Shown one piece after another: positions 4,480 through 11,167 of a stretch of DNA of 64,000 bases (the stretch's first letter is position 1; every line of letters begins with the position of its first letter). The position numbers were made by a program, and so were the translations under genes. The DNA is taken from positions 1 through 64,000 of the forward strand of contig CAJJCP010000007.1 in the NCBI GenBank assembly GCA_905182715.1, in the 5' to 3' direction. Source of the stretch: an uncultured Candidatus Poseidoniales archaeon. GTDB taxonomy: Archaea; Thermoplasmatota; Poseidoniia; Poseidoniales; Poseidoniaceae. Below the pieces are notes generated by a model. That model did no database searches and had not been told where the DNA came from. It saw only the letters and a program-made list of their open reading frames with translations.

Positions 4480-5550
4480 TCAGTCATCTTTATCGTCGAG
4501 GAAGTCCATGAGTAATGCCCCCAACCCTTGGTCGGTTCTTGTTTTAAGTTCTCGAACTATTTGTCTGATGATAAAGATGAGGCCAATTGGGGTCAAAGTC
4601 CCCCATACTGGTATCCAGCCGTACCATGGTAATGCATGATATGTGAGCCAAATTGGAAGGGCGAATATAAGGGCGATTGGTAAAAAGAGTATTGAAATCC
4701 CAAGGAAAACAACTCGAGCGATATTTGCTTTTTGAACCAAGTTGTATTTTTCAATTGAGGAGTGTTGTTCAGCCATTGTATTGACTTCATTCAACCACTC
4801 TAAATTGAGAGTATTCTTGTATGCGGTACCGTCCTTTTCAGTTGTTTGACATGCTTTGAAAAACGCATCTATTTGTTGTTCAGTACAACTGAATGATGTC
4901 AGTTTCTGTACTAATGCCTCGACGGTTGGATGCTGATACGTACGAACTCCCCAAACGGTTTTAACATAGGCAAAGGTAATTTCCTCACTTGATTGAGGTA
5001 GCATTCCCTTCTCCTGTTTTATTGATTCTCCATGCTCATCTAAAGTCGTGACGAGTCCTTTTATCGCGCCGAAAATAAACAGTACGGCGAGGAGTGAAGT
5101 TCCTACGAATTGAACGAGGGGCCCAATAAATGGGGTATAATGCTGCGGGTCAACATCAATCTCGCTTGGATTCTCGGGATTGTATGCAATGTCACGAGTC
5201 GAATTGACTGGGTAATCAACCTCCCAGACACGGGAATCAAAATGGGAGACCTTTTCTGATTCCTCAACATCAAAGATGGTCCCATTGATTGTGTATTGGA
5301 GATGGTATTCTACGATATATTCTCGGCATGTATCTTGGTTTTGAGAGTCACCACACTGGTATTCATAGACTTCAATGTCCATCTCTACGACAGTGGCATT
5401 GGTCGTCGGCCAAGATGAAGCGTCTCTTTCATTTTGAAAGTCGTCAAACATGATTGCAGGCCAAATGCAGCCAAGCAAGAACACAAGAGTTCCTACAACA
5501 ATTAAAGCAAGAGGAGGTGGCTGTATTCGAACACCAGGAGTAAGTACCAT
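4480..5550 (-). CDS. DUF3592-like membrane protein
   Basis: Membrane protein of 356 residues. A first transmembrane segment (about 14-35) is followed by an extracytoplasmic beta-rich domain (about 45-135, with several cysteines: YQCGDSQNQDTC). A second membrane segment lies at about 143-165, then a cytoplasmic stretch (about 170-275) and two closing membrane segments (about 280-340). The segment from WPTTNATVVEMDI to NPENPSEIDVDP matches the style of DUF3592 domains, where a TM-flanked domain has an RYNPENP-like motif. The biochemical role is unknown. It precedes the aldolase on the same strand, but a promoter-like box in between suggests separate transcription. Confidence 0.65.
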   Translation of the reverse strand: MVLTPGVRIQPPPLALIVVGTLVFLLGCIWPAIMFDDFQNERDASSWPTTNATVVEMDIEVYEYQCGDSQNQDTCREYIVEYHLQYTINGTIFDVEESEKVSHFDSRVWEVDYPVNSTRDIAYNPENPSEIDVDPQHYTPFIGPLVQFVGTSLLAVLFIFGAIKGLVTTLDEHGESIKQEKGMLPQSSEEITFAYVKTVWGVRTYQHPTVEALVQKLTSFSCTEQQIDAFFKACQTTEKDGTAYKNTLNLEWLNEVNTMAEQHSSIEKYNLVQKANIARVVFLGISILFLPIALIFALPIWLTYHALPWYGWIPVWGTLTPIGLIFIIRQIVRELKTRTDQGLGALLMDFLDDKDD

Positions 5551-8916: not shown

Positions 8917-9366
8917 ATGAACAAAGAAATCGAAGGCATTGTAGAAATCGGCTCCAAACCAATTGTTGAACGTCGTGCAACTGCAACTGGTGTACTCAAT
9001 TTGAGCCAAGCTTCGGCTGAAGCAATTCAAAACAAATCGGTCAAGAAAGGGGATGTGCTCGAGGCTTCGACCATTGCAGCGATTCAAGCGGTCAAAGATA
9101 CGCCACGTATTGTTCCCCACTGCCATCCGATTCCCCTTGAAGGATGTACCGTCAATTGGTCATGGGAGAAGTCTTCACTTCGATGCACAGTTCACGTTTC
9201 AGCCCATTATAAAACCGGAATTGAAATGGAAGCACTTACAGGTGTCAGTGCAGGTTTATTGTGTGCTCTGGACATGGTGAAGTCGATCGAAAAAGACGAT
9301 CAAGGACAGTATCCTGGAACTTCGATTTCTGATATTGTAGTTGTTGAGAAATTCAAAGGTCAATGA
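8917..9366 (+). CDS. moaC: Cyclic pyranopterin monophosphate synthase MoaC
   Basis: Acts with MoaA to turn GTP into cyclic pyranopterin monophosphate in molybdenum-cofactor synthesis. It has 149 residues from ATG at 8917, chosen because GGAGAGGAT precedes it directly after the moaE stop; the open frame begins earlier but inside moaE. Family motifs seen: VERRATATGVLNLS near the N-terminus, VKKGDVLEASTIAAIQAVK, the signature VPHCHPIPLEG, then GIEMEALTGVSAGLLCALDM and IVVVEKFKG at the end. It ends 3 bases before the convergent acyltransferase-aminotransferase gene. Confidence 0.95.
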   Translation: MNKEIEGIVEIGSKPIVERRATATGVLNLSQASAEAIQNKSVKKGDVLEASTIAAIQAVKDTPRIVPHCHPIPLEGCTVNWSWEKSSLRCTVHVSAHYKTGIEMEALTGVSAGLLCALDMVKSIEKDDQGQYPGTSISDIVVVEKFKGQ

Positions 9367-9369
9367 ACT

Positions 9370-11070
9370 TCATTGTTGAGCGAGAACCTGTTGCACGCAT
9401 TCAAGAATACGTTCGTTTTCTTCATGTGTTCGGATTGCAAACCGAACCGAATTGTTTCCAAGTGAGACTCCCATGTTTTGAGCATCACGAATAAAGACAC
9501 CTTTTTCCTTACATGCTTCAATAAAACTCGAGGATGTATGATGTGTATCTTCAGGTAGAAACGTCAGTATGAAATTTGCAACACCCGGCAAGACATCGAA
9601 ATTTTCTTGTTGTAGTTTCTGAGTCAGTATCTTTCGCTGCTGATGAATAATCGAGTATTGTTGATTGTAGTAACTCGGATTGTTCAAAGCCGCTACTGCA
9701 GCGAGTTGGCCCGGTAGACTGACCGCCCAAGGCGGAATAAACCGTCGTAATTCAGTCATCTTTTGACTGACTGCATAGGCGACACGCAGGCCAGATAATG
9801 CGTAGCATTTACTCATACTCTTACACACGATAAGACTCGGACATGTAGCTACGAGAGGCTCTAATGACTGGGCATCTGGCATGTAATCGATGTAAGTTTC
9901 ATCGACCCATATCATCTTGCATCGAGAGGGTAATACACTTTCATCTTGTATGCGGTGAATGATTTCACTCATCTCTTCACAGTACACTCCTGTTGGGCTG
10001 TTCGGGTTTACGAAGATAACTGCATCATGTAAACGCGATTGTTGAACCAATTCATCAACATTAATCTTGAATCCATTTTCTCGGTGAAGTACAAAATTGG
10101 TCATTTCACATCCGATCACATGGGTGAGGATATGACTGTATTCGCCGTACATTGGAGAAAGTACGAGTACTCGTGACTTTGCATTCAAGAGTTGAGGTAA
10201 AAAGGAAAACATCAGTGATGAAGAACCGGATGAAACTGCTACATGTTTGGTCTGAACACCACGAACATGTGCAATCGTTTCGATTAATTCCTCACATTGA
10301 GTTGGTGGAGATTCTTGGCAACATCGCTCCAGCTGTTCTCGGAGCACTTGCAATGCTTCAGGGCAAGGTGGAAACGGACTGTCCAATACATCTGCAACAA
10401 CAAGTGAATCGCGAACCTTAAAATCGAATTTCGAAGCGTCCCATGATTTCCCTCCATGGTAGCAAACATCATCTTCGGCTTCATTAGACTGTAATTGAGT
10501 GATACGATTCGCGTGAGTTGAAAGTGCTTTTTGCGGGTTGAGGTGCATAGGATAATAGTGAGTTTTACCGTATTGAACACCGTGTTCCTCGAAGACAGAT
10601 ACGCCTATTTTTTTGTACAGTTCAACAACACCAGAATGCCCCATGGCGATGATATCAGTTCCATCATGTTGGTGGACGAATTGGAGAGCAAAAACCATTA
10701 ATTTAGATGAAATTTGTTGACCTCGGAACTCTGGTGCCACGGTTAAGGCACGAACTTCATAGGTCGACGAATGGCGTCCTTCTGATTGAGAATACACTGT
10801 TTGGTCAAGAGTTTCTTGCGAAAAATACTTTGAAACACGGAAGGGTTTGTCGGTGGGGGGATTCAAACTGATGTATCCTGCAAGTTTGTTTCCTGCCATA
10901 CATGCAATGAAATTCCGGCCAGGATCTTCGAGTTGCTGTTCAATATTGATGTCATATTGCTGTAATTCAGTAGCATACACCTCATGCCGAAGTGATGAAA
11001 TCTGCTCCCATATGTTTTGAATTTCAATATCTTTAGGAAGTGGATAATTGAACACAACAAATTCTTTCAT
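9370..11070 (-). CDS. Acyltransferase (GNAT/N-acyl amino acid synthase-like)-aminotransferase fusion
   Basis: Two-domain enzyme of 566 residues. Residues about 1-180 form a GNAT-type domain: SLRHEVYATELQQYD, the acyl-CoA pyrophosphate loop RALTVAPEFRGQQIS, and the ending LYKKIGVSVFEE / YGKTHYYPMHLN, which resembles acyl-transferring GNATs such as N-acyl amino acid synthases. Residues about 215-566 form a fold-type I PLP aminotransferase of the histidinol-phosphate/class I-II kind: SSGSSSLMFSF, VNPNSPTGVY, WVDETYIDY, the Schiff-base lysine in CKSMSKCYALSGLRVAY, and the closing VRFAIRTHEEN arginine. Both domains look intact. The reaction is not known; a product in which an amine is acylated is plausible. 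Transcribed divergently from the lipoprotein gene at 11,168. Confidence 0.75.
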   Translation of the reverse strand: MKEFVVFNYPLPKDIEIQNIWEQISSLRHEVYATELQQYDINIEQQLEDPGRNFIACMAGNKLAGYISLNPPTDKPFRVSKYFSQETLDQTVYSQSEGRHSSTYEVRALTVAPEFRGQQISSKLMVFALQFVHQHDGTDIIAMGHSGVVELYKKIGVSVFEEHGVQYGKTHYYPMHLNPQKALSTHANRITQLQSNEAEDDVCYHGGKSWDASKFDFKVRDSLVVADVLDSPFPPCPEALQVLREQLERCCQESPPTQCEELIETIAHVRGVQTKHVAVSSGSSSLMFSFLPQLLNAKSRVLVLSPMYGEYSHILTHVIGCEMTNFVLHRENGFKINVDELVQQSRLHDAVIFVNPNSPTGVYCEEMSEIIHRIQDESVLPSRCKMIWVDETYIDYMPDAQSLEPLVATCPSLIVCKSMSKCYALSGLRVAYAVSQKMTELRRFIPPWAVSLPGQLAAVAALNNPSYYNQQYSIIHQQRKILTQKLQQENFDVLPGVANFILTFLPEDTHHTSSSFIEACKEKGVFIRDAQNMGVSLGNNSVRFAIRTHEENERILECVQQVLAQQ

Positions 11071-11167
11071 AGTCAGAAGAAAAGAACCTATCTCTTGAAT
11101 GATTCGCCGGTCAACTTTACGAGGGTTCTATCGGAAAGTCATTATTCCCCTGTCGAGTGGACTGGCT

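Follow-up and report, generated by a model that had tools for sequence, protein, structure and literature searches.

A GNAT acyltransferase-PLP enzyme fusion in Marine Group II archaea and on Streptomyces plasmids with a possible role in the formation of an N-acylated amino-alcohol phosphate

The fusion gene and its conservation

The window, a stretch of 64,000 nucleotides, lies on contig C7 of a Candidatus Poseidoniales (Marine Group II) genome with a size of 1.78 Mb and a completeness of 73%. On its reverse strand, which also encodes all of the protein features described below, positions 9370-11070 form a single open reading frame of 566 codons with an ATG start, so that two domains are contained in one protein of 566 aa (P0001). 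In Pfam searches, the N-terminal part of P0001 was matched by Acetyltransf_1 (8.5e-8, residues 30-156) and by FeeM (2.7e-5, 24.4 bits, residues 23-162), and the C-terminal part by Aminotran_1_2 (PF00155; 1.5e-37, residues 232-557). Both active sites are conserved. R28 (10987-10989), with which the acyltransferase motif RHxVY starts, E105 and R107 of its E-V-R motif (10750-10758), R116 and K421 are invariant in all 23 archaeal rows and in all 13 rows of a mixed archaeal/Streptomyces alignment (A2). K421 (9808-9810) is located in the sequence SKCYALSGLR and aligns with the lysine of the S-x-[ST]-K motif of CobD and HisC, which identifies it as the Schiff-base lysine for PLP. An earlier note on this DNA had described a fusion of a GNAT and a PLP domain, both of them complete, and the single reading frame, the Pfam matches to both halves and the invariant residues bear this out.

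Full-length homologues exist, and the same end-to-end fusion is found on 23 further archaeal contigs and in eight Streptomyces plasmid records; the archaeal relatives comprise 24 loci, among them one 3' fragment (L032). In comparisons with three close relatives, the dN/dS ratio of the fusion gene is 0.066-0.074, with lower values for the PLP half (0.043-0.049) than for the GNAT half (0.077-0.098), and the gene thus evolves under purifying selection. Because the same fusion recurs on the other archaeal contigs and in the Streptomyces records, and because its dN/dS is about 0.07, it is neither a chance reading frame nor an assembly chimera, and the fusion itself is established. The earlier note would have been contradicted by numerous identical fusions whose reaction is assigned; other fusions do exist, but a search of open-licence papers found no description of a GNAT-PLP fusion and no function assigned to one. 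It is the combination of the two halves that is novel, the parts themselves being of known kinds.

The acyltransferase and PLP halves

The GNAT domain (residues 1-178; 10537-11070) was modelled alone from 19 archaeal rows, which gave a model with a pLDDT of 90. When this model was used in a fold search, the first seven rows were acyl-homoserine lactone (AHL) synthases (BjaI, RpaI, TofI and LasI) with Z scores of 17.1-18.1 over 170-181 of 189 residues, followed by FeeM (2g0b) with a Z score of 15.4 over 165 residues and by plain GNATs such as GCN5 with Z scores of about 15 over 139-146 residues. In all fold lists, rows no more than one Z unit apart were regarded as tied, and the absence of a family from a list carries no weight. 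Judged by this rule, the lead of the AHL synthases over FeeM in the ranking of the predicted structure is real, if modest. The proposal of the earlier note that the N-terminal half is FeeM/LuxI-like is therefore upheld by the predicted structure, and the LuxI/FeeM-type fold can be taken as established. The likeness to the AHL synthases does not extend far beyond the fold, as the sequence identity is 10-14%, the autoinducer-synthase Pfam model (Autoind_synth, PF00765) matches one of the 19 rows, and weakly (E 6e-4), and the AHL synthases, which use SAM, have no PLP half. The FeeM model PF21926, on the other hand, matches 18 of the 19 rows at E<=0.01, although its scores are borderline with respect to the gathering score of 27 (24.4 for the whole of P0001, 27.5 for the N-terminal piece alone and 23.6 for the Streptomyces protein), and FeeM, an N-acyl amino acid synthase, also lacks a PLP domain. 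A sequence profile of the N-terminal half gave weak matches in the PDB, to ordinary acetyltransferases, so that a short acyl group is possible as well. Members of the LuxI and FeeM families attach acyl chains to amines. In one review, aminolipid N-acyltransferases are treated alongside LasI, EsaI and FeeM (PMC11631085).

The PLP domain spans residues 200-566 (9373-10473), and its N-terminal arm starts at around residue 200, within what appears to be a linker. The full-length model has a pLDDT of 77 and a pTM of 0.57. In the fold search, the PLP half matched the L-threonine-O-3-phosphate decarboxylase CobD (1lc5, 1lc7, 1lc8, 1lkc) with a Z score of 31 over 326 residues at 2.6 A and the histidinol-phosphate aminotransferase HisC with a Z score of 30; the two are tied, and the fold shared by them is established for this half. 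An alignment profile searched against the PDB separated them, as CobD (1lc5-1lc8) was the best match with 139 bits, followed by 3ftb with 112, the CobD-like decarboxylase SMUL_1544 with 111 and true HisC proteins with about 96 bits. The fusion also carries the N-terminal HGG arm of CobD: H205-G206-G207 (10450-10458) align with the CobD HGG and are invariant in the 23 archaeal and 13 mixed rows. Among 22 archaeal relatives and two yardsticks, this arm is present in the Klebsiella CobD and 11 CobD-like proteins and missing from the Klebsiella HisC and 11 HisC-like proteins (the trees were built without L055). With local profiles, all seven fusion PLP halves used, out of the 13 rows of A2, scored higher with CobD than with HisC, by 14 to 42 bits.

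The family models are less clear-cut. P0001 scores equally with the NCBIfam models for HisC (TIGR01141, 167.6) and CobD (TIGR01140, 165.9), whereas the Streptomyces fusion (174.6 vs 141.8) and the archaeal fusion at L031 (154.7 vs 146.9) score higher with CobD than with HisC. None of the three reaches the curated CobD cut-off of 290.55, P0001 stays below the HisC cut-off of 276.55, and no protein of its own genome passes the latter. A tree with the same seven rows, for which two other proteins of the class I/II aminotransferase family, taken from the same genome, served as the outgroup, joined the fusion and CobD weakly (support 86/56) and did not reject the alternatives (p-AU 0.28). Without a root, a tree of the fusion rows together with CobD-like and HisC-like ones gave no answer as to the nearest pair. 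Taken together, the sequence comparisons suggest that the PLP half is a CobD/HisC-type PLP enzyme which is probably decarboxylase-like and leans towards CobD rather than towards an ordinary aminotransferase. The wording "PLP aminotransferase" in the earlier note is hence not supported by the CobD profile score, the HGG arm and the local profiles, with the fold tied and the rooted tree weak; the outline of its interpretation stands, with the PLP half now assigned to the CobD/HisC type.

Two arginine residues of CobD and HisC, which we take to be phosphate-binding, have invariant equivalents in the fusion: according to the CobD alignment, R528 (9487-9489) corresponds to CobD R323 and HisC R322, and R543 (9442-9444) to CobD R337 and HisC R335. 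Apart from an identity of only about 24%, the fusion differs from CobD at two positions. D230 (10381-10383), in the VLD[SA]xFPP lid, takes the place of an asparagine in CobD (N32 by our own count), and S254 (10309-10311), in an SPP motif, that of a tyrosine which is found in both CobD (Y56) and HisC. As both substitutions are present in every row of the two alignments, the substrate or the reaction of the fusion may differ from that of CobD.

Genomic settings in Poseidoniales and Streptomyces

All close relatives are located on Poseidoniales contigs in a scan of genome contigs, in which the records were Poseidoniales/euryarchaeal only. The fusion is present in 20 of 145 Poseidoniales genomes, in one of them (G247) as a fragment at a contig end, and in 5 of the 33 genomes of the order that are at least 90% complete. 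In a search of the phylum, eight of 48 genomes of the order and none of 146 genomes outside it contained a full-length relative; in the remaining 166 genomes with a match, it was to the PLP half or partial only. Thirteen of the 24 loci (L009-L021) share the setting of the window, with moaC and a BNR-repeat gene. Another setting is common to L022 and L024, a further one to L027 and L028 and yet another to L029-L032, and L023, L025 and L026 are located elsewhere. An empty site is seen in the relative G074 (L076), where moaC is directly followed by the BNR-repeat gene (corresponding to 8917-11099 of the window); in the single-contig genome G015 (L077), bioY follows moaC, with no sign of the fusion or the BNR-repeat gene at this site. 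From the patchy presence, the differing settings and the empty site, we infer that the archaeal fusion is a trait which stands alone, is optional and has moved between locations, probably through gene transfer.

No recurring partner gene was seen across the archaeal neighbourhoods, in which gene families were tested for a minority of the neighbours. In L022 (4035-5936) and L024 (4031-5935), the gene immediately upstream of the fusion encodes an Eco57I-like DNA N6-methylase, which suggests a variable site. A role in anti-phage defence, for which the patchy distribution and this methylase might be cited, was considered and rejected, as PADLOC returned no family at E<=0.01. Carriage by viruses was rejected as well: no relative was found in viral contigs with two peptide patterns, and among the phage records listed there were matches to the PLP half only, none covering 80% of the query. 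Two further observations concern single loci: at L023, a pyridoxamine-5'-phosphate-oxidase-like gene (1220-1846) lies just upstream of the PLP-requiring fusion, and in the window, the gene at 4480-5550 shares 36-45% identity with its syntenic copies and its flanking genes 63-97%, indicating faster evolution.

In Streptomyces, the fusion has a partner. A tblastn search of 72,556 plasmid records detected the full-length fusion in eight, all from Streptomyces, with about 33% identity from end to end; these copies are annotated as histidinol-phosphate transaminase. In seven of the eight records, a CdsA-like gene directly follows the fusion. In three annotated settings, this gene is named phosphatidate cytidylyltransferase and overlaps the stop of the fusion by four bases, and a CdsA-like gene is also present in a fourth, unannotated setting. 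The linkage is seen in four distinguishable Streptomyces lineages, and the operon is established. Streptomyces NBC_01591 carries the fusion, and no CdsA-like partner was found in it. Conversely, a search for the CdsA paralogue in the same 72,556 records returned seven, all among the eight with a fusion, at 70-100% identity. The partner matches CTP_transf_1 (PF01148) with E values of 1.6e-29 and 3.2e-31, and its SPxK, GDLxES..KR..KD and GGxLDRID blocks align with those of CdsA (4q2e/4q2g). It differs from CdsA in that PGHGG of 4q2g is replaced by [PA]GSGG in all four partners, and its score with NF008635 is 62.5 bits against a cut-off of 385. By these sequence features, it is a CdsA paralogue.

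We also considered whether the archaeal fusion has a CdsA partner. Nearly all genomes of the order contain weak and short matches to CTP_transf_1, mostly to profile positions 169-235. Strong matches are confined to seven genomes, all without the fusion, and we therefore claim no archaeal CdsA partner. The bacterial-type CdsA-like gene of these seven genomes, which belong to the Poseidoniales genus g11 (L072-L075 represent four of them), has E values of 1e-47 to 4e-51.

Possible reactions and products

CobD-family chemistry yields amino-alcohol phosphates, LuxI/FeeM-type enzymes acylate amines, and CdsA activates phosphatidic acid or lipid phosphates. Based on these three activities, an N-acyl amino-alcohol phosphate is the simplest product, and we tentatively propose that the fusion is a bifunctional enzyme which forms it. 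The earlier note suggested a single enzyme that forms an amine and then acylates it, which would be in keeping with both halves. PLP chemistry requires a free amine for binding to the cofactor, and the PLP step would therefore come first, provided that the two halves work on the same molecule. The CobD-type half would bind a phosphorylated substrate via R528 and R543 and generate the amine, an amino-alcohol phosphate; decarboxylation of an O-phospho-amino acid, for instance phosphoserine or phosphothreonine, would be the most likely route. The LuxI/FeeM-type half could then acylate this amine, with acyl-CoA or acyl-ACP as the donor, to yield an N-acyl amino-alcohol phosphate of lipid-like character, and the fusion would serve to channel the amine between the halves. 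In Streptomyces, the operon suggests a third step, in which the CdsA paralogue would activate the lipid phosphate with CTP. The substrates, the acyl length and the order of the reactions are what we infer here. Precedents for the first step exist among PLP enzymes that produce ethanolamine phosphate or serinol phosphate. Cj1436 decarboxylates phosphoserine (PMC12409886), Cj1437 is an aminotransferase converting dihydroxyacetone phosphate (DHAP) to serinol phosphate (PMC12096443), as is RtxA, and SMUL_1544 is a putative precedent for decarboxylation; the descriptions of Cj1436, Cj1437 and RtxA mention no fusion to a GNAT acyltransferase.

The PLP half could instead transaminate DHAP to serinol phosphate, which the GNAT half would N-acylate to an analogue of lysophosphatidic acid, to be activated by the CdsA paralogue after a second acylation. 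This would give a phospholipid backbone in which an amide replaces one ester. It is the best account of the CdsA partner, HisC-type chemistry is close, given that the NCBIfam scores of P0001 nearly tie, and Cj1437 and RtxA are known to catalyse this transamination. These precedents are, however, matched by description and not by sequence, and since the PLP half leans towards CobD, with an HGG arm that HisC lacks, we favour decarboxylation and consider a DHAP aminotransferase rather unlikely. Also unlikely in our view is a small N-acetylated or short-acyl metabolite, such as an osmolyte or a natural product, made from a non-phosphorylated amino acid, with the CdsA neighbour being incidental. 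The plain acetyltransferases matched by the N-terminal profile would agree with such a product, and the HisC-like families matched by P0001 include GntC and VioD, which act on arginine derivatives; yet the fold search places acyl-chain synthases first, R528 and R543 are invariant, and the linkage to the CdsA paralogue is seen in four distinguishable Streptomyces lineages.

An archaeal counterpart of acyl-homoserine lactone, acting as a diffusible acylated signal, would be in line with a patchy single gene whose fold is nearest to that of the CoA-dependent AHL synthases BjaI and RpaI. We regard it as quite improbable, as the autoinducer-synthase model finds hardly any of the rows, no partner recurs across those archaeal neighbourhoods, where a minority of neighbours was assigned to families, and a signal would not be expected to come with a CdsA partner. 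The least probable explanation, scarcely credible for the archaea, is a displaced HisC or CobD that carries a regulatory GNAT domain and serves in the synthesis of histidine or cobamide. It could be read from the NCBIfam matches and from the name given to the Streptomyces copies, but the scores are far below the cut-offs (167.6 vs 276.55 and 165.9 vs 290.55) and the distribution is patchy. Moreover, hisD was found in none of 60 Poseidoniales genomes (control 13/14) and CbiB (PF03186) likewise in none of the 60 (control 8/14), so neither textbook role fits in archaea and both were rejected as the archaeal role of the fusion.

Taken together, a fusion of these two halves has been kept across two domains of life, and we found no described enzyme that joins a GNAT acyltransferase with a CobD-type PLP half. 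If the tentatively preferred reading, the synthesis of an N-acyl amino-alcohol phosphate, is true, the fusion would provide a one-protein route to an acylated amino-alcohol phosphate, with a CdsA paralogue adjoining it in Streptomyces. One might speculate further, although we think this unlikely, that Marine Group II archaea and Streptomyces have in common the one-protein synthase of N-acylated amino-alcohol phosphate lipids belonging to a class that has so far escaped recognition. Its product would be a phosphate-bearing precursor of aminolipids, activated with CDP in Streptomyces to serve as an alternative phospholipid backbone, and in the archaea the trait would be optional. One study reports that glycerol-1-phosphate dehydrogenase is absent from Marine Group II archaea, whose lipids are an open question, while putative fatty-acid and PlsC-like genes are present in them (PMC6962369), which is why a testable lipid enzyme from this group would be useful. 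The Streptomyces pair makes the lipid reading addressable in a cultivable organism.
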